Translations under genes and position numbers: made by a program | Shown: piece by piece, positions 3,890 to 13,517 of the stretch | Layout: every line of letters starts with the position of its first letter | How positions within the stretch are numbered: the stretch's first letter is position 1 | Notes under the pieces: generated by a model | Database searches by the model: none | What the model was told of the DNA's origin: nothing | The model's input: only the letters and a program-made list of their open reading frames with translations | Origin: Anaerolineae bacterium | GTDB lineage: Bacteria > Chloroflexota > Anaerolineae > Promineifilales > Promineifilaceae | Length of the DNA stretch: 64,000 bases | Assembly (NCBI GenBank): GCA_023954475.1 | Contig: JAMLHW010000003.1 | Location: 62,001 to 126,000, forward strand | Direction: 5' to 3'

Positions 3890-4238
3890 TGTGAGGACGC
3901 ATGCCATCGACAAAAGTATTGGCGATTCAAGAGGAATAGACATAGACAGATATTGGATATGCTATCGTGTACGTAGCCTTCGGTTATGGAATGGCATTGT
4001 GAATGTGATCTCCGTTCGCTGTGCTCACATCCGTGAGGTCGCAAACTTGAGTCCCTTATGCCCATGGAAAAAGCCCTCTACTGTAGAGGGCTTTCGTGGT
4101 TGATTTCTCTTCAATCTTCCCTCGCCTGTAAGTCGGGAAGATTTTCTGGCACATTTGCTCCGAGAAGCAGTCCTCAAGCTGCCGGATCAGTTCCGTTCGC
4201 CTGATTCGTGGCATCTGCGTGCCGATTCTGCAAGTGTT
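3890..4238. other. Intergenic stretch between convergent genes
   Basis: About 350 bases between the serine hydrolase and the leftward sulfur operon. It holds one clear hairpin terminator (4070-4093). Otherwise no coding pattern, RNA gene or repeat is recognisable. There is no TCGGCCGA palindrome. Confidence 0.6.
4070..4093. terminator. Hairpin terminator between convergent operons
   Basis: AGCCCTCTA and TAGAGGGCT form a 9-bp stem around a CTG loop, flanked by A-rich sequence on the left and TTT on the right, so it could stop transcription from both sides. Confidence 0.7.
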
Positions 4239-4739
4239 CTAAATAAAGATAATCTGTGCGTCTTCACTTAATTCCATGAAGTCAGTTGCGCCGACGATGC
4301 CCTCGACACCTTCATACAAATCTTCTTCGTGCAGTTGGAACATGTCTGTCGATAAACGGCATGCATAGAGCTTGCCGCCGGCGTCTGTGATCATCTCTAG
4401 AAATTCCGGAATTTCGGGGAACTCCAGCTTGTCCATTTCCTTTTTGATCATTGATGTCGCCATATTGGTCATGCCCGGAAAACCGGCCACCGCGTTGGGA
4501 ATGCCAATGGTACGGTTGCCGAAATTCATCTTGTGCGGATTGCCGATAGGCGTGAACTTGAGGTTGCTCATCTCACGCTTGGTGATCATATCCAGTCCCC
4601 AGAACGTGAAGAAAATCGTCACGTCAATCCCTTCCATCAAGGCGGCGTTCGCCAATACTAGACCCGGATATGCCATATCAAGCGTACCCTTTGAACAAAT
4701 AATGCATAATTTGCGATCAGTTTCTTTTTCGTCCCACAT
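4239..4739 (-). CDS. DsrE/DsrF-like sulfur-handling protein (DsrE2 type)
   Basis: The 166-residue soluble protein begins with a Rossmann-like strand carrying paired cysteines (LCIICSKGTLDMAYPGLVLA; Cys12 and Cys15), then EGIDVTIFFTFWGLDMI, which is typical of the DsrE2 / peroxiredoxin-associated DsrE group. A further cysteine lies in KLYACRLSTDMF. Family members bind and pass on sulfane sulfur. It is the last gene of a leftward operon with TusE, DUF1641 and an SQR homologue, so a role in handling sulfur released by sulfide oxidation is likely. GAGGTG lies in front of the ATG. The exact acceptor is unknown. Confidence 0.85.
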   Translation of the reverse strand: MWDEKETDRKLCIICSKGTLDMAYPGLVLANAALMEGIDVTIFFTFWGLDMITKREMSNLKFTPIGNPHKMNFGNRTIGIPNAVAGFPGMTNMATSMIKKEMDKLEFPEIPEFLEMITDAGGKLYACRLSTDMFQLHEEDLYEGVEGIVGATDFMELSEDAQIIFI

Positions 4740-4792
4740 GATGTCACCTCGTTTGTCGTAGTTGGTACTGTTGTGTCAACAGGCTGTCGTTG

Positions 4793-5110
4793 CTAAATAC
4801 AGCCATGTGGTTTGCCTAATCCGGAGACGTAGGCAATCTTTTTGGCCGGCTTTTTCGGGAACAATTCGTACAGGTCCTTTGTCGGCACGCCGGCGGCTAC
4901 TTTGAGACGACGCAGCGTGGGTGCTTCGCCTCGCTCGTCAAAGTCAGAGCGTGAAAACTCGATTACTTGCCAGTGTGATGCCGTCAATTCATCGATACCG
5001 ACTTCGTGTGCCAATTCCTGGGCCACATCTTTATCCCAATCTTGCGGGTTGGCCAGGAAGCCATCTTCATCAAATTCAATTGTTTTGCCTGCAATTTCTC
5101 GACTTGTCAT
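4793..5110 (-). CDS. TusE/DsrC/DsvC family sulfur relay protein
   Basis: At 105 residues this is the usual length for TusE/DsrC. FDEDGFLANPQDWDKDVAQE, the central HWQVIEFSR, and the C-terminal GLGKPHGCI are diagnostic. The conserved near-C-terminal cysteine (Cys104) is present, but the second cysteine about ten residues upstream, which true DsrC proteins use to form a trisulfide with sulfite reductase, is replaced (PAKKIAYVSG). It is therefore TusE-like, a single-thiol sulfur carrier rather than a DsrAB partner; no dsrAB is in the window. Its neighbours suggest it receives sulfur from the DsrE-like protein or the SQR homologue. Confidence 0.88.
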   Translation of the reverse strand: MTSREIAGKTIEFDEDGFLANPQDWDKDVAQELAHEVGIDELTASHWQVIEFSRSDFDERGEAPTLRRLKVAAGVPTKDLYELFPKKPAKKIAYVSGLGKPHGCI

Positions 5111-5168
5111 GGTTTAGTTCTCCAAAAGGTTATAGTTTGATCGGGTGAGTTTGTTTTCTCATCCCTGA

Positions 5169-5864
5169 TTATGTGTCAGACATCGTTTTTAAGACGTTGA
5201 GTGTTTTGCTCAACCCACGTCGTACGCCGGGATCGTTGAGCTGGCGCATAATGGCGAAGAGGGAGGGAGTTTCGGCCGAATCCTCTTCTGTCAATTCTAT
5301 TACCGAACTTCTCAGCAGACGCATCAGTTCCGGCTGCGTCATTTCCTTGAGCGTATCCAGAATCAGCACGATGTTCTCACCCAACTGTTCAATGTCGTCC
5401 TCGGTGTAATTGGTCACAATTCGATCGAGGATGCCCATGCCGCCAGCTACAAACGTAAAGTAGCCTTTGCGCTCCATCTCGTCCAAACGCGCCATTACGG
5501 TCACAAACGCATCCTGCGACAATGGGCTGAGATCACTACCCAACTCGACCAGACTCTCAAACTGATCGAGCATTTGCTCCAAGTTGCGCGTATTGCGTAA
5601 CAGCCGCTTGAACAGGTGCAAAATGTCTTCAAGCTGGACATGAGGCTCGATCTCTTCCAATTGCGTTACGGTTAACCGGTACATATCCATCGCGATCGGC
5701 GTCATATCTTGCTTCAGTTCTGACCATTCCAACCGAGCCTGCTGCTGTGCCCGCGCTTCTTCGGCGAGAAATGCAACTTGTGCGGTCAGCGCGTCGATCT
5801 TGCGATTGAGATCAGCGATGGTTTCAGATTCGGCCGATATGGGATTTATCACCAACGTATCCAT
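5169..5864 (-). CDS. DUF1641 domain protein
   Basis: The 231-residue soluble, mainly helical protein starts with a likely coiled coil (residues ~15-50, IADLNRKIDALTAQVAFLAE). Its middle, with GYFTFVAGGMGILDRIVTNY, matches DUF1641, a family often found next to sulfide:quinone oxidoreductases and formate dehydrogenase-type genes. The function is unknown; a membrane-associated or scaffolding partner of the oxidoreductase has been suggested from gene order only. The start lies 9 bases after the SQR stop, so the two are surely cotranscribed. Confidence 0.8.
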   Translation of the reverse strand: MDTLVINPISAESETIADLNRKIDALTAQVAFLAEEARAQQQARLEWSELKQDMTPIAMDMYRLTVTQLEEIEPHVQLEDILHLFKRLLRNTRNLEQMLDQFESLVELGSDLSPLSQDAFVTVMARLDEMERKGYFTFVAGGMGILDRIVTNYTEDDIEQLGENIVLILDTLKEMTQPELMRLLRSSVIELTEEDSAETPSLFAIMRQLNDPGVRRGLSKTLNVLKTMSDT

Positions 5865-5873
5865 GCCAACCTC

Positions 5874-7106
5874 CTAATTCCATTTGCCGGCCATCGACAT
5901 CTGCGACGTGATCGGCATTTCCTTGCCCTTGAGCAAAATATTCCAATACATCCAACGGAACATCATTTTGCCCCAATGGTTCATTTCCGATTCCTGCAGC
6001 AAAGAGAATGGACCAACGCCAGGCAACGGGAATTTGCCCGGCAGCGGCTCAACATCGTAGTTAAAGTCGATCAAAATGCCTTTGCCGAAGCCGGATTCGA
6101 TGTAGCAGTTCGCATGGCCGTCAAACTGATGCGTCATTTCCAGCCCATCGATATAGCGCAGGAAATTTTCAGTCCATGTTTCAACTGCGAAATGGGCGAC
6201 CGAACCAGCTTTGGATGTCGGCAGCGCTGCTGCATCGCCGAGGGCAAAAATGTTGTCATAATCAGCGTGCACAAATGTGTGTTTGTCAACCGGCACATGG
6301 TTCAATTCGTCGCCCAAACCGGACTGTGCGATCATTTCAGCGCCCATGTTGACGGGAATTGTCACCAGCATATCGTATGGCACTTCATTTTCATCATACG
6401 ACCGCAATACCTTCGCATCCTGATCCACGCCTTCTGCATAGAAATCGGTAACGAGGTGAACATTTTTGCGCTCCAGAATATCGCCGAGCAACGCACCGGC
6501 ACGTGGCTTGGTGAACGCACCCGGCAGCGGTGTGACAAAGGTGATATCAACTTTGTCGCGCAAACCCTGTTCATGGAACCACCAATCAGCCAGGAAGACG
6601 AATTCCAGTGGTGCAACCGGACATTTGAACGGCATTTCCATGATGTTGACAACCAGTCGCCCGCCATCCCAATACCGGAGCCGCTTGGCGAGCGTTACTG
6701 CGCCGCTGTGCGTATAGAATTCATGAATCGTATCGCCCCAGCCCGGCCCTTCTAGCCCCGGAGTTTCTTCCGGCACAGGACGCGTCCCGGTGGCGATGAC
6801 GAGGTAATCGTATTCCAGATAGCGACTGTCTTTGGCCAAACGAACCCGATTCTTTTCCGGTTCGATTTGTTCAATGGGAGACATGATCAAATTGACACCG
6901 GCGGGAATGTAGTTGCGTTTTGGTTTGATGACATCGTTAGGACCATAGATGCCGAACGGGATAAACAGGAATCCAGGCTGATAGTAATGAGTTTCATCTT
7001 GATCGACGATGGTGATGTCCCATTCGAGCAGATCGAGATGGTGAATCATTTTGTTAGCAACCATTGTGCCGGCGGTTCCTGCACCTAAAATCAATAATTT
7101 TTTCAT
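5874..7106 (-). CDS. Sulfide:quinone oxidoreductase-like FAD flavoprotein
   Basis: The 410-residue protein starts with the FAD-binding LLILGAGTAGT and has a second dinucleotide region (YDYLVIATGTRPVPEETPGL) and the C-terminal FAD motif NIFALGDAAALPTSKAG. Only two cysteines occur, Cys162 in FKCPVAPLEF and Cys334 in GHANCYIESG; they align with the redox-active pair of SQRs. Family members oxidise sulfide to polysulfide and reduce quinone at the membrane. The ATG at 7106 is chosen because AAAGGAG lies nine bases before it; an in-frame TTG further out lies inside that site. It is the first enzyme gene after the regulator. A flavocytochrome or related disulfide reductase is the alternative. Confidence 0.87.
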   Translation of the reverse strand: MKKLLILGAGTAGTMVANKMIHHLDLLEWDITIVDQDETHYYQPGFLFIPFGIYGPNDVIKPKRNYIPAGVNLIMSPIEQIEPEKNRVRLAKDSRYLEYDYLVIATGTRPVPEETPGLEGPGWGDTIHEFYTHSGAVTLAKRLRYWDGGRLVVNIMEMPFKCPVAPLEFVFLADWWFHEQGLRDKVDITFVTPLPGAFTKPRAGALLGDILERKNVHLVTDFYAEGVDQDAKVLRSYDENEVPYDMLVTIPVNMGAEMIAQSGLGDELNHVPVDKHTFVHADYDNIFALGDAAALPTSKAGSVAHFAVETWTENFLRYIDGLEMTHQFDGHANCYIESGFGKGILIDFNYDVEPLPGKFPLPGVGPFSLLQESEMNHWGKMMFRWMYWNILLKGKEMPITSQMSMAGKWN

Positions 7107-7168
7107 CTGATTGGCTCCTTTAGACAAGAGGTGAAAGTGGAAAAGCGTGATTTTTCACCCATCATCCT

Positions 7169-7888
7169 TCATCCTTTCAATATGGTGCGCTCGCTGGCAA
7201 TGTGTGACACGATGTCAGCAATGCGCTGAATGAGTGCGAGGACGTGGTCGCGTTCCGCACTGGTCAAATGGTAAACGTCATCGAGGTGTGGCTGAAGTAG
7301 ATCGACTGTTACGCCGAGTTTGTGTGCCATGTTATCCAGTTGCGTACCTGTTGGCGGCCAGTTGTCCGGCGCAAGTCCGCCGACAAATACCATACCCTCC
7401 AGTGAGCTGCCCACGCGAATCAATCCGCGTGCGCACAGTAAGCCCAAAGAACTGTGGGTGAATGTCGGCGCAATAACGGGTTTTGCAGCCATTTCGTGCC
7501 AATGATCGACGCATGTTTGCCACACTTGCGGGTAGGCATGTAGCGCAGTGAACAGGCCGCAGGGATTGCTCGGCTCGGTGATCGGATTGCCCTGCATATC
7601 GGTCATAATGATCATCACGTCGAGTGCATCGGCGAATCCGTCTTGCACCAGTTGGACGCAATCGAGCGGCAAAATGTCGTGTAGACGACTGCTGGAAGTC
7701 GACTGGTTGTTGTGTTGAGCAACTGTGTTTTTATTGCCGAGCAGAGTGTGGATTTCGGCCGAATCAAATCGCCATTGCCGACCAACTTTAACAGCCGGGA
7801 TGCGCCCGTCTTCAGCCATGCGGTATACCGTTGAGCGATCTACCAGAAGAATTTCCTGAACATCTTTGGCTGTAAGCAATGTTGACAT
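7169..7888 (-). CDS. Excisionase-type HTH regulator with PocR sensory domain
   Basis: The N-terminus (LLTAKDVQEILLVDRSTVYR) is an excisionase/MerR-like helix-turn-helix of residues ~3-50. After a Ser/Asn-rich linker, residues ~75-235 match the PocR ligand-binding domain, including the hallmark SNPCGLF and a later Cys in LLCARGLIRVG. PocR domains bind small ligands or metals. The ATG at 7888 has GGATCGGA upstream; the frame stays open for another 57 codons with an odd His/Met-rich stretch (MHAMHMHHMHSM), which I judge to be operator DNA rather than protein. It lies 62 bases upstream of the SQR gene, same strand, and most likely controls this sulfur operon and itself. Confidence 0.82.
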   Translation of the reverse strand: MSTLLTAKDVQEILLVDRSTVYRMAEDGRIPAVKVGRQWRFDSAEIHTLLGNKNTVAQHNNQSTSSSRLHDILPLDCVQLVQDGFADALDVMIIMTDMQGNPITEPSNPCGLFTALHAYPQVWQTCVDHWHEMAAKPVIAPTFTHSSLGLLCARGLIRVGSSLEGMVFVGGLAPDNWPPTGTQLDNMAHKLGVTVDLLQPHLDDVYHLTSAERDHVLALIQRIADIVSHIASERTILKG

Positions 7889-8231
7889 CGATTCCGATCC
7901 ATTTGTGAAATAATGAACAAGTATAGATGGAATGATACGGGTGCAGAACGGGTAGCAACAGTGACTTTCGGCCGAATCGCGTATGACAAATGTCACATCC
8001 TGCATACTATGCATGTGATGCATGTGCATGGCGTGCATTTTGTCGGTGCAAACTCCCATGTGGCCGCAGCGTTTTCGGTCAGTATCCGCACTTGAACCTC
8101 AATTCAATGCATATCAGAAACTCCTCAGACGCACTCGTAACAATTTTCACAAACAGTTGACAGAGTTATACTAGCGGATGGTGTCCGGTACTTATGCCGG
8201 TTTGACTACGTACTAATTCAAGGAAAATCTC
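7889..8231. other. Divergent control region between PocR-type regulator and RND transporter
   Basis: 343 bases. It contains TGACA-AA-TGTCA, five TGCAT repeats, one TCGGCCGA (7968), and further right TTGACA (8157-8162) and TATACT (8167-8172), which are too close together to form one promoter. AAGGA precedes the RND start at 8232. No small gene is convincing. Confidence 0.55.
7984..8038. promoter_or_regulatory. Candidate operator: inverted repeat plus five TGCAT repeats
   Basis: TGACA (7984-7988) and TGTCA (7991-7995) form a 5-bp inverted repeat with a 2-base centre. It is followed by TGCAT at 8001, 8010, 8019, 8025 and 8034, two of them within the palindrome ATGCAT. Spacings of 9, 9, 6 and 9 bases suggest ordered protein binding. 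The PocR-type regulator is the obvious candidate binder. The role is inferred from position only. Confidence 0.45.
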
Positions 8232-11200
8232 ATGCTTTCCAGATTCTTCGATAAAATCACGCGTCTATCCGTGCGGTTCAAATGGGTGACGTTGATCCTC
8301 ACTTTTACTGTGTTGGCTGCCGGACTTTATGCTTTGACCCAGCTCAATCAGGAACTGCTGCCTCCGATTAGTTTCCCGCAAACAATTGTCGTGACGCAAT
8401 GGTCTGACTCGGAATCGGCCGAACAGCTTCTTAGCGAAATAACCGATCCGCTTGATGCTGCCTTGAGTGAAATCGAAGGCGTTGTCAATGTTGAGTCGAC
8501 GACCAACAATAGCTTTGCCGTGACGATTGTGCGCAACGAATTTGGACTGAATCAGGATCGCGTCGTCGAAACCATCGAAACGTTGACTGATGCATTTGCT
8601 CTGCCTGAAGGGGCTGAGATACAAGTGTTCACCTTCGACTTGGGTGATCTGCCGGTCGTGATTTCCAGTATCAGTTCATCGGAATTGACACTGCCCGAAC
8701 TCAAAGCTGTGATCGAAAACGAACTGCGACCTACGTTACTCGACATCGAAAACGTCAGTGAGGTTGCCGTCAGTGGTGGTCAGGAATTGCCCAAAGATGA
8801 GCCGGCAGCCGGTGTTGCCGATGATTCGGCCGAACCGGAGCCGGAACCAACCGCCACACCCAATCCTGCCGCCGCCGAAAAACCGCTCAGCCGCCTCAAT
8901 TTCACCTTGCGCACTGCGCTCAGCGCTTACGGCTTTGATGACATTGAAAATGCGCAGGATATTACGGCGGAGCAGGCATTGGCAGTCATCGGCCTTGGTG
9001 ATATTGCTATACAGGCGTTGGAGCAACTCAGTGACGAAAATCTGCTGGCCATTGATCCGGAAACATTGGCTTACCTGCCTAGCGACTATACTGAAACACT
9101 CGATTCTGACTTGCTCGATGAGCTGAATGCGCGTTCGGCCGAATTTGGTGGCGTGGGCCAATTCACCCTTGCTGAAGCCGTTGCAGCCAAAGAAGCCGGC
9201 GTCAACGTGCTGACAGGTGAACCGCTCGATGCGGCCGCAATCATTGAAGTGCCAACTGCGACACCAGAACCTGAACCAACGGCCGAACCGGTCGAAGAGA
9301 CCGTCGCTACTGGGGTTGCGTTGCCAGACGAATGGGTACAAGCGGCAGCGGCTCAAGGCGTCACAATTACGACCACGGCTGATTTGACGCCCGAATTTAT
9401 CGGCGCGCTCGTCACGCTGGCTCCGGAATCACTCCAACTGTTGACGCCGGAAATGGTGCTGGCGCTGTCGGCCGAACAGTTGGCCGCGCTTCCTGAAGAA
9501 TATTTCGCTACATTGGACGAGGAAACCCAGGCTGCGTTGGCGGAAAAGGCGGCTGCAAATGATGTCGCCATGGCCGAATCTGAACCGGTGGCCTTGCCCG
9601 AAGAATGGGTGCAAGGGGCAGCGGCTCAAGGCGTCACAATTACGACCACGGCCGATTTGACGCCTGAATTTATCGGCGCGATAGTCACGCTGGCTCCGGA
9701 ATCACTCCAACTGTTGACACCGGAAATGTTGCTGGCGATGTCGGCCGAACAGTTGGCCGCGCTTCCTGAAGAATATTTCGCTACATTGGACGAGGAAACC
9801 CAGACTGCGCTGGCCGAAAAGGCGGCTGCAGATGCTGGTGCCATGGCCGACTCTGAACCGGTTGCCTTGCCCGAAGAATGGGTGCAAGCGGCAGCGGCTC
9901 AAGGCGTCACAATTACGACTACGGCTGATTTGACGCCCGAATTCATCGGTGCGATTGTGACACTTGCGCCGGAATCGTTGCAATTGTTGACACCGGAGAT
10001 GGTGCTGGCATTGTCGCCCGAACAACTGGCTGTTTTGCCGGAAGAATTCATTGCGTCGCTTGACGAAGGGACGCAAGCCGCATTGCTGGCACGGCTCGAA
10101 TCTTCGGCCGAAACACCCACAGTTGAACCGGTCGCGTTGCCGGAAGAATTGGTCGCCGGCGCTGCGGCACAGGGCTTGACCATCACGACAACTGCCGATC
10201 TGACCCCTGAACTGCTGGGCGGCATTGCGCAAGTTGCACCTGAATCACTGCAACTGCTGACGCCGGAAATGTGGCGGTCTATGCCGCCGGAAACGCTGGC
10301 TGCTGTCTTGCCGGTTGCGGGTGCGGCGTTGGATGCTGATTTGGTGGCCCAATTGGCGGCGATTGTGGCGGCTGCAACTGGTGAAATGCCCGATTCGGCC
10401 GAATTGCCGCAATCGTGGATCGACGCTGCTGCGACTGCCGGATTTCCTATTGAAACGACAGAAGACATCTTGCCCGAAGCGCTTTCCGGCATCGCCGGAC
10501 TCGCCCCCGAACTGCTTGCCGACCTCACGCCCGAGATAATTCTGGCGCTGACACCGGCCAATCAGGCCGCATTGCCGGCCGACTACATCGCGACGCTCGA
10601 TGAAGGATTGCAGGAAACGTTGGCCATCATCGCCATTCGCGATGCGCAATTCCAGTTGGCGCAGGCAGAAGAAAGCGGTGCTGACGAAGAAATGGTCGAG
10701 GAAGAACCGGTCGATCCGGCCCGCTTGCCTGATCTGCTGGTCAACGGTTTTGCGCAGCAGGGGCTGGAGATCGAAAACGCGCAAGACATTCCGGCCGATT
10801 TGATGCGCCAGTTGAGCGGCATCGGCGAGCAAGCGACGCAGTTGCTTGGTTTGCTGACACCAGACAATTTGCGCCTGTTGCAGCCGGAGGTAATCGCCTT
10901 GCTGCCGGAGGCGTTCCTCGACACGCTGGACGCCGATTTGCGTGCTGAGTTGGACGAACTGGCTGCCGAATTTGGCGGTGCGGGTCAACTTGCCATTCAG
11001 GAAGCGGAGGAAGCGGCTGCGCTGGCTGAAGGCGCACCTGCTTTATCCGGTGCCTGGCTCGAACCGGGTCCTGATGGCGAACCACCGCTATTTACGACGG
11101 CGGCTGACCTCGTGAATAATCCGTTTGCCCCTGGCGCAGCCGCTCTGTTGAGCTTCTTGCCGCAGCAGGCGGAAGATCCCGGTGCACTCATGTCATCGCT

Positions 11201-13517
11201 GACACCGAATGTGATTGCGTTCATCATCGAAAATGAGCCTGATTTCCTGGCCAACATGCCGACGACGGTGCTGGAACTGATGTCGGCCGAAACGTTGCAA
11301 TTTATCATCGATGAATATGGTGATGATCTCGACGCTGAAAAACGGGACCGTCTGGCTGCCATTGCAGCCGGCGAGGTAGAAGTGTTTGTACCCGAATCGA
11401 GTATCACGCGTAGCAACAGCAATCCCGCTCTCATCCTGCAAGTGTTCAAAGAAGGTGACGCAAACACAGTTACCGTCGCACACGAAATCTTTGACGCGCT
11501 CGATGCGTTTGAAGCCAACAATGGCGTTGATATCGAACTCGCATTTGAACAGGCGTCGTTCATTGAAGATTCGATTAACGGTGTCGCCCGCGAAGGGTTG
11601 CTCGGTGCATTCTTTGCCGTCATCGTTATTCTGATTTTCCTCAGTGGTCGCGTCAATGGTAAATACAAGCTCAGTTGGCGTGCAACCTTGATTGTTGCGT
11701 TGTCCATTCCGACTTCGGTCTTGTTCGCGATTTTGCTCATGTGGCTGTTGCCGGTCACCGTTGGTCAGCAGTTTGAGACAATTCGCGATGGCACAAACAG
11801 TTCGTTCTTACGCGCGGTGTTGAGTCTTATTCCGGCGTTTGTGACGCTCAATATCATGACGCTCAGTGGTCTGACAGTGGCAATCGGCCGAGTTGTTGAC
11901 GACTCGATCGTTGTACTCGAAAACAGCTATCGTTATATCCAAAAAGGCCACGATCCAGAGCAGGCTGTCTTCCAGGGTACGCAGGAAGTGGCAGTTGCCA
12001 TTTTCTCCGCCACGATTACGACCATGGCCGTTTTCCTGCCGCTGGGTCTCATTGGCGGTTTGATCGGTACGTTCTTCCTGCCGTTCGGACTGACTGTCAC
12101 CTACGCTCTGGCGGCTAGTTTTATCGTGTCGATCACGGCAGTTCCGGCTTTAACTTCGATGTTGATTCGCAAGGAAAACATCCCGGAAGAGAAAGAAACG
12201 TGGATGCAGCGCACCTACACACCGATGCTCGTGACTGCGCTCAAACACCGCGCGGTCACAATGATTATTGCGCTTTTGCTCTTCTTCGGCGCGATCTATC
12301 TGTTGACGACGTTGCCCCAGAGCTTTATTCCGTCGTTGGGTGAACCGACGGTCAATGTGACCATTCAATTGCCCAGTGATACGGGTATTCTCGAAACAAA
12401 TGAAAGGGTCACCGAATTTGAAGAAACGGTGAGCGCTATTGCGGGGGTTGAGACAATTCTGACGGAAGTCGGCGGTGCCGGCGGCTTTGAGTCGTTTTTT
12501 GGTGGCGGCGGTGTCGCGCAAAATGCAGCTAATTTGACGATTTCGGTGCTTGAAGAGTATCAGGAAGAGATTGATGGGATTGCTGAAACGGTGCGTATGG
12601 AAGCGGCTGATGCGTTCGGCGAAGACAATGCGTCCGTTTCTGCTGCCAGTCAAACTGGTTTCAGTGGATTCAGTATTATTGTAACGGCAGATTCGCTCGA
12701 AGATCTCCTCAAATCGGCCGATGATATTCAGGCAGCACTGGCAGAACTCGATGCTGACGGCAACGGAAAACCCGACTTGTTTAACATCACGACTAATGCC
12801 GATGCCGCCCGCGACGGTGCTACCATCATCCGCATCGATGGCCGCCCGGCGATCAGCTTCAGTGCTGAACTGGATACGGCCGATACAATTGGTATTGCCA
12901 CCTCCGCCAAAGAAGCCATCAACGCGATTCCAGGCCTGCCTGCCAATACTGAAGCAAGTGAAGGGTTTGATACGCAGCAGCAAACGGAAGGGTTTGCCAG
13001 CATGGTTTCGGCAATCGGCATCTCGATCATCATCGTTTACATCATCATGGCGATCACGTTCCGCAGTCTTGTCCACCCGTTTGTGATTCTATTCAGTCTG
13101 CCATTTGCCATGGTCGGCGCTGCACTGGCGCTGTGGCTCACGGGTAGTGTGCTCGGTATCGCAGCTATGGTCGGTATGTTGATGCTGGTCGGTGTGGTGG
13201 TGACGAACGGTATTGTCCTTATGGAGCTGGTCAAGCAGCTCAAGGAAAAGGGCGAATTGACTTACGATGCGCTGGTTGAAGCGGGTCGCACGCGTCTGCG
13301 GCCGATCTGGATGACGGCGTTGACGGCGATTCTGGCATTGATTCCGCTGGCATTGAGCAGGGAAGGCGGTGCGATTATCGCAGGTGAACTGGGCATTACC
13401 GTGATTGGTGGTTTGCTGGTGGCGACGGCATTGACGTTGATCGTGGTGCCGGTTGTTTACAGCTTGCTCGATCAGGGTATTGTCGGTTTCAAGCGGCGTA
13501 TTGGCCGCAGCCAGTAG
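8232..13517 (+). CDS. RND-family efflux transporter with giant repeat-built periplasmic insert
   Basis: The 1761-residue protein starts as a normal AcrB/HAE-type RND permease (first TM ~17-37, then the porter segment LNQELLPPISFPQTIVV). After residue ~185 (NVSEVAVSGG) comes a Pro/Glu linker and about 870 residues of degenerate ~90-residue repeats, rejoining the RND fold near residue 1060 (NPALILQVFKEGDANTV). Two membrane blocks follow (~1115-1330 and ~1590-1750). The RND proton-relay signature VVDDSIVVLE has Asp1223 and Asp1224. Normal RND pumps have 1000-1100 residues, so about 700 are extra. The insert sits where the porter and docking domains face the outside. No membrane-fusion protein or outer-membrane channel gene is adjacent, fitting a cell without a typical TolC system. 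AAGGA lies ahead of the ATG. Confidence 0.9.
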   Translation: MLSRFFDKITRLSVRFKWVTLILTFTVLAAGLYALTQLNQELLPPISFPQTIVVTQWSDSESAEQLLSEITDPLDAALSEIEGVVNVESTTNNSFAVTIVRNEFGLNQDRVVETIETLTDAFALPEGAEIQVFTFDLGDLPVVISSISSSELTLPELKAVIENELRPTLLDIENVSEVAVSGGQELPKDEPAAGVADDSAEPEPEPTATPNPAAAEKPLSRLNFTLRTALSAYGFDDIENAQDITAEQALAVIGLGDIAIQALEQLSDENLLAIDPETLAYLPSDYTETLDSDLLDELNARSAEFGGVGQFTLAEAVAAKEAGVNVLTGEPLDAAAIIEVPTATPEPEPTAEPVEETVATGVALPDEWVQAAAAQGVTITTTADLTPEFIGALVTLAPESLQLLTPEMVLALSAEQLAALPEEYFATLDEETQAALAEKAAANDVAMAESEPVALPEEWVQGAAAQGVTITTTADLTPEFIGAIVTLAPESLQLLTPEMLLAMSAEQLAALPEEYFATLDEETQTALAEKAAADAGAMADSEPVALPEEWVQAAAAQGVTITTTADLTPEFIGAIVTLAPESLQLLTPEMVLALSPEQLAVLPEEFIASLDEGTQAALLARLESSAETPTVEPVALPEELVAGAAAQGLTITTTADLTPELLGGIAQVAPESLQLLTPEMWRSMPPETLAAVLPVAGAALDADLVAQLAAIVAAATGEMPDSAELPQSWIDAAATAGFPIETTEDILPEALSGIAGLAPELLADLTPEIILALTPANQAALPADYIATLDEGLQETLAIIAIRDAQFQLAQAEESGADEEMVEEEPVDPARLPDLLVNGFAQQGLEIENAQDIPADLMRQLSGIGEQATQLLGLLTPDNLRLLQPEVIALLPEAFLDTLDADLRAELDELAAEFGGAGQLAIQEAEEAAALAEGAPALSGAWLEPGPDGEPPLFTTAADLVNNPFAPGAAALLSFLPQQAEDPGALMSSLTPNVIAFIIENEPDFLANMPTTVLELMSAETLQFIIDEYGDDLDAEKRDRLAAIAAGEVEVFVPESSITRSNSNPALILQVFKEGDANTVTVAHEIFDALDAFEANNGVDIELAFEQASFIEDSINGVAREGLLGAFFAVIVILIFLSGRVNGKYKLSWRATLIVALSIPTSVLFAILLMWLLPVTVGQQFETIRDGTNSSFLRAVLSLIPAFVTLNIMTLSGLTVAIGRVVDDSIVVLENSYRYIQKGHDPEQAVFQGTQEVAVAIFSATITTMAVFLPLGLIGGLIGTFFLPFGLTVTYALAASFIVSITAVPALTSMLIRKENIPEEKETWMQRTYTPMLVTALKHRAVTMIIALLLFFGAIYLLTTLPQSFIPSLGEPTVNVTIQLPSDTGILETNERVTEFEETVSAIAGVETILTEVGGAGGFESFFGGGGVAQNAANLTISVLEEYQEEIDGIAETVRMEAADAFGEDNASVSAASQTGFSGFSIIVTADSLEDLLKSADDIQAALAELDADGNGKPDLFNITTNADAARDGATIIRIDGRPAISFSAELDTADTIGIATSAKEAINAIPGLPANTEASEGFDTQQQTEGFASMVSAIGISIIIVYIIMAITFRSLVHPFVILFSLPFAMVGAALALWLTGSVLGIAAMVGMLMLVGVVVTNGIVLMELVKQLKEKGELTYDALVEAGRTRLRPIWMTALTAILALIPLALSREGGAIIAGELGITVIGGLLVATALTLIVVPVVYSLLDQGIVGFKRRIGRSQ
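9321..10403 (+). repeat. Tandem ~273-base coding repeats inside the RND gene
   Basis: Units start at 9321, 9594, 9867, 10137 and 10404 (periods 273, 273, 270, 267). Each encodes LPxxWVxxAAAQGVTITTT, then DLTPEF, LAPESLQLLTPEM, LSAEQLAALPEE and LDEETQAAL. Units one and two are nearly identical in DNA, so duplication is recent. More diverged units extend to about 8890 on the left and 11000 on the right. TCGGCCGA sits at the same point of units one and two (9468, 9741) and is lost in unit three. Confidence 0.9.

Follow-up and report, generated by a model that had tools for sequence, protein, structure and literature searches.

A candidate sulfide-oxidising gene cassette (SQR, DUF1641, TusE and DsrE2) with a PocR-type regulator in an Anaerolineae bacterium

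Gene organisation of the locus

The stretch of DNA analysed here, 64,000 nucleotides of contig JAMLHW010000003.1 (positions 62,001 to 126,000; assembly GCA_023954475.1) and hereafter called the window, comes from an Anaerolineae bacterium of the family Promineifilaceae with a genome of 5.12 Mb (97.9% complete). On its minus strand, from position 7888 to 4239, lie five genes that encode a regulator with HTH_17 and PocR domains, a flavoprotein of the sulfide:quinone oxidoreductase (SQR) type, a DUF1641 protein, a protein of the TusE/DsrC family, and a DsrE2-like protein (Table 1). The gaps between them, from the regulator to DsrE2, are 62, 9, 58, and 53 nt. All five genes are thus placed as in the original prediction, which had read them from the sequence as a compact operon running in one direction with short gaps, and the operon is supported by the gene placement, the gaps, and the gene order conserved in other genomes.

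Table 1. Features of the cassette and its flanks (positions in the window)
Feature	Position	Strand	Size and basis
HTH_17 + PocR regulator	7169..7888	-	239 aa; Pfam, NCBIfam
Type III SQR, Cys form	5874..7106	-	410 aa; NF049943, human SQOR alignment, model
DUF1641 protein	5169..5864	-	231 aa, all helical; PF07849, profile matches, model
TusE-type DsrC family protein	4793..5110	-	105 aa; single C-terminal Cys104
DsrE2-like sulfur carrier	4239..4739	-	166 aa; Cys15, Cys127
Predicted operator, six TGCA sites	8001..8050		8001, 8010, 8019, 8025, 8034, 8047; three at exact 9-bp steps
Palindrome TGTGACATTTGTCA, presumed CRP/FNR type, 5' of regulator gene	7984..7997	-	similar sites in PocR loci
Intrinsic-terminator-like hairpin, 3' of last gene	4058..4106	-	folding

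Conservation and distribution of the cassette

Relatives of the cassette were collected by scanning an alignment of 13 SQRs against genome contigs, which yielded at least 595 matches; the best 80 by SQR similarity were used. These 80 loci are a non-random sample, and the search patterns held the active-site cysteines, which biases it against other residues at these positions. Downstream DNA of 1.7 kb or more was available for 67 loci; 65 of them carried SQR-DUF1641-TusE-DsrE2 on the same strand and in the same order, and the remaining two were arranged as SQR-TusE-DsrE2, so that TusE and DsrE2 adjoin the SQR in all 67. Conservation of this gene order is far beyond chance, and a survey of DUF1641 next to TusE, suggested along with the original prediction, finds this adjacency kept in the same 65 loci. 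According to the record titles, the cassette occurs in Chloroflexota, Actinomycetota, Neomarinimicrobiota, KSB1, Calditrichota, Ignavibacteria, Bacteroidota, Verrucomicrobiota, and WOR-3. Cultured carriers include a Kineosporia strain (L079) and, going by the record title, Thermoflexus (L047).

The SQR is present in 19 of the 59 genomes searched as relatives, the window's own included, and of 400 genomes from the phylum, 19 passed the NF049943 cut-off. No TusE gene was seen in the available DNA flanking the more distant SQRs of the phylum (loci L122-L131), indicating that the cassette belongs to the SQR clade of the window. Once the cassette genes and the regulators are set aside, none of the plausible neighbouring gene families recurs in more than 10 of the 80 loci. 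In two Verrucomicrobia loci (L069, L089), a gene for an OMPP1/FadL-type outer membrane protein lies directly 5' of the SQR gene. A search of viral contigs revealed no relatives, and plasmids contained only distant SQRs, all below 60% identity. On the SQR tree, the window protein groups with metagenome-assembled genomes of Acidimicrobiia and Actinomycetes (SH-aLRT 92), which suggests either transfer between phyla or mixed bins.

The component families are known, and an SQR accompanied by sulfur carriers is a known kind of system. In the literature searched, with subscription papers mostly outside it, no description of the four-gene cassette, of the exchange of its regulators or of the 9-bp array described below was found, nor any paper containing both DUF1641 and 'sulfide quinone'.

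The SQR flavoprotein

The flavoprotein matches the NF049943 model over its full length with a score of 641 bits (cut-off 525); translation could alternatively begin at a TTG at 7127. Its Cys162 and Cys334 align to the catalytic cysteine pair of human SQOR, which we take to be residues 201 and 379, and both are invariant in a 47-row alignment. The AlphaFold model (pLDDT 84.8) matched human SQOR with a Z score of 45.3 over 396 residues; Z scores were lower for other SQRs (about 38), for flavocytochrome c (about 37), and for NDH-2 (about 34-36). Together, the family score, the cysteines, and the model bear out its initial identification as an SQR homologue.

The NF049943 family has been listed with selenocysteine in an HxxU motif (PMC13188914). 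In the window, the codon at 6107-6105 is TGC, giving the motif H-A-N-C334 with no selenocysteine, and H-A/S-N-C was found in 117 of 119 related open reading frames (a few of which are duplicates), the other two not being resolved. The protein is therefore the cysteine form of the type III selenoprotein subtype and is not itself a selenoprotein. The use of selenocysteine at the position of Cys334 elsewhere lends support to a redox role for this residue.

Sulfur carriers and genomic context

The TusE/DsrC protein was recognised by Pfam with 111.9 bits. The last cysteine, Cys104 in the window, was kept in 105 of 105 readable rows of the alignment, and the position of the second DsrC cysteine is occupied by alanine (91 rows, including the window), serine (13) or threonine (1). 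Lacking one of the two cysteines that define DsrC proper, the window protein is of the TusE type. A lysine in place of the second cysteine was also considered and was ruled out by the PDB alignment and the column counts. This residue is reported to be almost always Ala, Ser or Thr in organisms without DsrAB (PMC3397948), and for DsrC of Allochromatium vinosum the same source describes a persulfide on the penultimate cysteine alone, with a DsrE-family cysteine as the donor.

The DsrE2-like protein scored 124.6 bits against a Pfam family cut-off of 25, and its score with the DsrE2 equivalog model NF047629 (123.7 bits) is below the cut-off of 210. All 81 readable rows keep the cysteine of its YAC motif, and 72 of 104 keep the N-terminal cysteine.

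The genome contains one TusE, which is its only DsrC family protein, one DsrE2, and one DUF1641. A genome-wide search for NIR_SIR (sulfite reductase/DsrAB) gave no match, with 11 of 14 controls positive, so the initial observation that no dsrAB genes lie near the cassette extends to the whole genome. TusA was searched for in this genome and not found. Its HdrABC genes are located on contig 7 together with genes that, read by eye, resemble those of a NiFe hydrogenase. This HdrABC, whose HdrA is HdrA2-like, is likely an electron-bifurcating complex. Judged by the marker genes of Dsr sulfur oxidation (DsrAB) and of sHdr sulfur oxidation (TusA and Hdr-like genes), neither pathway is represented. 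The lack of NIR_SIR and TusA, together with the hydrogenase-like setting of HdrABC, means that the genome lacks the endpoints usual for a persulfide relay. Rhodanese genes, considered as candidate sulfur acceptors, gave 18 matches in the genome; ten of these loci were read by eye, and none was taken as a persulfide dioxygenase.

DUF1641 as a candidate quinone-coupling subunit

The DUF1641 protein was assigned to PF07849 with 28 bits (cut-off 21). In a PDB search with a profile built from 67 DUF1641 proteins of the cassette, the best match was ForE1 (E 2.1e-7), followed by YjlC (E 0.003) and, at E 0.006, a chain that bears the name 'NDH-2 membrane coupling protein'; the matches below these were mostly coiled coils and designed helical proteins. 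In the ForCE system, ForC1 without ForE1 has been reported to lose formate:menadione activity and most of its bound menaquinone (PMC8808070). PDB entry 9a63 is a model of the YjlC-YjlD complex, and its matched chain B has the SQR/NDH-2 fold.

The genes adjoining DUF1641 elsewhere tell a similar story. In Chloroflexota genomes, some DUF1641 genes adjoin another SQR-like gene, and others adjoin hypB and a hydrogenase small subunit gene. The SQR-side group aligned to the cassette profile with an hhalign probability of 95.8, and the hydrogenase-side group with a probability of 73.7 over the C-terminal 57 columns only. At two other Chloroflexota loci (L153, L155), DUF1641 lies between SQR-like and rhodanese-domain genes. 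Haloarchaeal plasmids carry the gene order TusA-SQR-DUF1641. In Ignicoccus, a DUF1641 protein and an FAD-dependent pyridine-nucleotide-disulphide oxidoreductase with consecutive gene numbers are reported to be raised together (PMC3149612), and the table of a Parageobacillus hydrogenase operon starts with DUF1641 (PMC12976888). Two further papers (PMC7409299, PMC9684190) name DUF1641 merely as a list entry and did not serve as evidence. The theme shared by these neighbours is a peripheral dehydrogenase that has to meet quinone. The accessory role first proposed for DUF1641 can thus be refined: the protein is a regular member of the cassette, and the profile matches make it more likely a quinone-coupling subunit of the ForE/YjlC kind than an undefined accessory, although some cassettes do without it.

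The regulator and its predicted operator

The N-terminal HTH_17 domain of the regulator scored 51.5 bits and the PocR domain (PF10114) 60.3 bits (cut-off 23.9), in line with its first description as a PocR-HTH protein. The helix-turn-helix is MerR/BldC/excisionase-like, and the BldC model NF033787 reached 24.4 bits, below its cut-off of 77. The regulator may therefore work like BldC, without being classed as a member of that family. A PDB search with its sequence gave no match at E 0.1.

In the 80 loci, the gene 5' of the SQR encodes a PocR-HTH protein in 33 cases, an ArsR-type protein in 11, and a cysteine-rich MerR-type protein in 8; none of the three was found in 23, and 5 had too little DNA. 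The class of regulator changed at least five times on the SQR tree, a quick tree with some open forks. The original prediction had pointed to a regulator usually linked with carbon metabolites. A carbon signal finds no support: in other lineages, ArsR and cysteine-rich MerR types take the same place, and nothing was found that connects the regulator to carbon. One cysteine column is conserved in 15 of 15 ArsR-type regulators, nine cysteine columns in 6 to 8 of 8 MerR-type regulators, and three near-invariant cysteines in 39, 45, and 42 of 48 PocR regulators. A thiol-sensor reading of the PocR cysteines is weakened by the occurrence of two of the three in an unrelated PocR protein of Ilyobacter, and they are suggestive only. 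The MerR-type regulators with nine conserved cysteines (L049, L050, L066, L068, L075, L077, L083) are possible sulfur or metal sensors.

Upstream of the regulator gene, the window contains the only triple match to TGCA at 9-bp steps in its 64 kb, where 0.05 would be expected. The motif was analysed in 32 PocR loci that had a motif-placed start and enough upstream DNA, the other PocR loci being left out; up to 850 nt upstream of the SQR in 30 loci without PocR served as the control. The 32 upstream regions contained 164 TGCA sites, compared with 25 in shuffles. Runs of at least two sites at 9-bp steps were present in 28 of 32 loci and runs of at least three in 19 of 32 (dinucleotide shuffles, 0.7 and 0.015, respectively), while no runs were found in any of the 30 control loci. 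After thinning to SQRs less than 80% identical, the runs were found in 15 of 17 PocR loci and 0 of 19 loci without PocR. BldC has been described as binding head-to-tail on AATTXXXX(C) repeats of nine bases (PMC5859096). The 9-bp array, the nine-base unit of BldC, and the MerR-like helix-turn-helix lead us to predict head-to-tail binding for the HTH-PocR protein as well, which turns the predicted operator into an exact DNA prediction.

Palindromes that we take to be of the CRP/FNR type occur in 16 of the 32 PocR upstream regions. The reading frame of the regulator extends upstream (7889-8059) to an ATG at 8059, and this stretch would encode a His/Met-rich peptide; since the TGCA array lies within it, a role as operator is more probable than a coding one.

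Flanking features

The hairpin 3' of the last gene (4106-4058 on the minus strand) consists of 12 pairs followed by UUUUU, with a folding energy of -19 kcal/mol and a z-score of -4.3; it was detected by folding and is not listed by a consensus terminator scan. On the other side of the cassette, a divergent gene for an RND-type (AcrB-type) transporter starts at 8232 and ends at 13517. Its product of 1761 aa contains a long extra region with tandem repeats of about 91 aa (period of 273 bp, 2.6 copies, 90% match), which is unusual in the RND family.

Proposed function and alternative explanations

The operon, the SQR flavoprotein, and carriers with the right cysteines make sulfide oxidation with a persulfide relay, as put forward in the original prediction, the best reading of the locus, with the activity itself deduced from sequence. 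The cytoplasmic type III SQR would oxidise sulfide and hold the sulfur as a persulfide on Cys162/Cys334, and the electrons would pass through FAD to menaquinone. The DUF1641 protein could act as a partner subunit that recruits the SQR to the membrane and assists in holding the quinone, on the model of ForE1 for the formate dehydrogenase ForC and, as is thought, of YjlC for NDH-2. Chemistry suggests that the persulfide would then be handed to Cys127 of DsrE2 and on to Cys104 of TusE, the sulfur staying protein-bound throughout. The HTH-PocR protein is predicted to bind the 9-bp TGCA array 5' of its own gene in the head-to-tail fashion of BldC and to switch the operon on as sulfide or reactive sulfur species rise, and the CRP/FNR-type site could add redox or oxygen control. 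We assign a probability of about 0.6 to such a self-contained sulfide-oxidising module as a whole.

Several observations weigh against this interpretation. Of the 103 cassettes that have TusE and DsrE2, 10 show a missing or uncertain DUF1641 gene, and the presence or absence of this gene changed at least six times on the SQR tree. In seven of eight such genomes, no DUF1641 was found genome-wide at E 0.01, with a weak Pfam model that gave 2.9e-4 for one of two positive controls. Cassettes and genomes without it imply that DUF1641 is not indispensable. The model of the window's DUF1641 protein (pTM 0.38) gave no fold match at E <0.001; the VIA rows of that search were long-helix look-alikes, and it was dropped as evidence. 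SQRs typically carry a membrane-binding C-terminus of their own, and this stretch is conserved whether or not DUF1641 is in the cassette. No enzyme that would finally oxidise the sulfur turned up in the genome, where Sor, Sox, and persulfide dioxygenase were not searched genome-wide. Moreover, DsrE2B of Metallosphaera is reported to have been unreactive with every sulfur compound tried (PMC4175335).

The absence of a dissimilatory sulfur pathway from the genome, where neither NIR_SIR nor TusA was found and Hdr sits in a hydrogenase-like cluster, also suits a role in detoxification or signalling rather than energy gain, to which we give slightly less than even odds. The SQR would then remove low-level sulfide, DsrE2 and TusE would buffer persulfide, the regulator would be a sensor of reactive sulfur, and sulfur would leave as polysulfide or a low-molecular persulfide. 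It agrees with this that the cassette stands alone among its neighbours and that all three classes of regulator in this seat (ArsR, MerR, PocR) carry conserved cysteines. However, a quinone-linked SQR still yields energy, so that this explanation overlaps with the sulfide-oxidising module, and the PocR cysteines shared with the Ilyobacter protein need not sense sulfur.

A biosynthetic use, in which sulfide is converted to protein persulfide and TusE feeds a thiolation enzyme such as MnmA for tRNA or cofactor thiolation, would fit a genome without TusA whose sole DsrC family protein has a single cysteine like E. coli TusE. It is nevertheless unlikely, since an SQR found in about a third of the relatives is too patchy for essential thiolation, and a regulator and a quinone enzyme better suit a conditional pathway. 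It is very improbable that the flavoprotein is another quinone-linked dehydrogenase such as an NDH-2-like enzyme, with the carriers serving something else: SQR, flavocytochrome c, and NDH-2 do share a fold and YjlC, the weak relative of the DUF1641 protein, is modelled with YjlD, but the two SQR cysteines are invariant, the best matches are SQRs, and TusE and DsrE2 are next door in every testable locus.

Returning to the sulfide-oxidising module, a broader proposal can be put forward tentatively, as a possibility that we consider rather doubtful. The cassette could represent a widespread two-subunit sulfide:menaquinone oxidoreductase, composed of the SQR and a ForE-like DUF1641 protein, that passes its sulfur directly to a DsrE2-TusE pair, keeping it protein-bound on the way to an acceptor other than DsrAB or sHdr, under a new class of BldC-like regulators with a sensor domain (HTH_17 fused to PocR) that would read reactive sulfur and oligomerise on 9-bp TGCA repeats. 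The cassette is found repeatedly in many mostly uncultured lineages and would flag sulfide use missed by dsr and sHdr surveys, and DUF1641 gains a testable role beside another class of flavoenzymes.

Comparison with known systems

Among known SQRs, the window protein resembles the type III family NF049943 in its full-length, above-cut-off match and in both catalytic positions, and differs in having Cys334 where that family has selenocysteine. The relay proposed here recalls the DsrEFH-DsrC relay of A. vinosum, in which a DsrE-family donor likewise serves a DsrC-family acceptor through its penultimate cysteine; the window protein, however, has alanine where DsrC has its second cysteine, the genome lacks DsrAB, and the sulfur is proposed to come directly from the SQR. 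The tusA-dsrE2-hdr (sHdr) clusters also employ DsrE2 as a sulfur carrier where Dsr is absent, whereas in the cassette TusE replaces TusA, which the genome lacks, and the SQR replaces the Hdr-like complex.

For DUF1641, the closest parallel is ForCE of Bacillus subtilis, where a catalytic redox protein is likewise combined with a DUF1641 partner (ForE1) for menaquinone; the catalytic partner in the cassette is an SQR-type flavoprotein, and the likeness to ForE1 is limited to the C-terminal half (profile residues ~105-225). YjlC-YjlD, an NDH-2 with its membrane coupling protein, similarly joins a flavoprotein of the same fold to a DUF1641-like partner, but its substrate is NADH, and YjlC is only weakly similar to the cassette profile. 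In the haloarchaeal operons, exemplified by Halobaculum, the SQR gene is also followed directly by DUF1641 and accompanied by a sulfur carrier gene, but the carrier is TusA and lies upstream, whereas TusE-DsrE2 lie downstream in the cassette. Finally, BldC of Streptomyces shares with the HTH-PocR protein a MerR-like helix-turn-helix and a 9-base direct-repeat unit in variable copy number; BldC uses the helix-turn-helix alone, without a PocR domain, and its repeat unit, AATTXXXX(C), differs from TGCANNNNN in the window.

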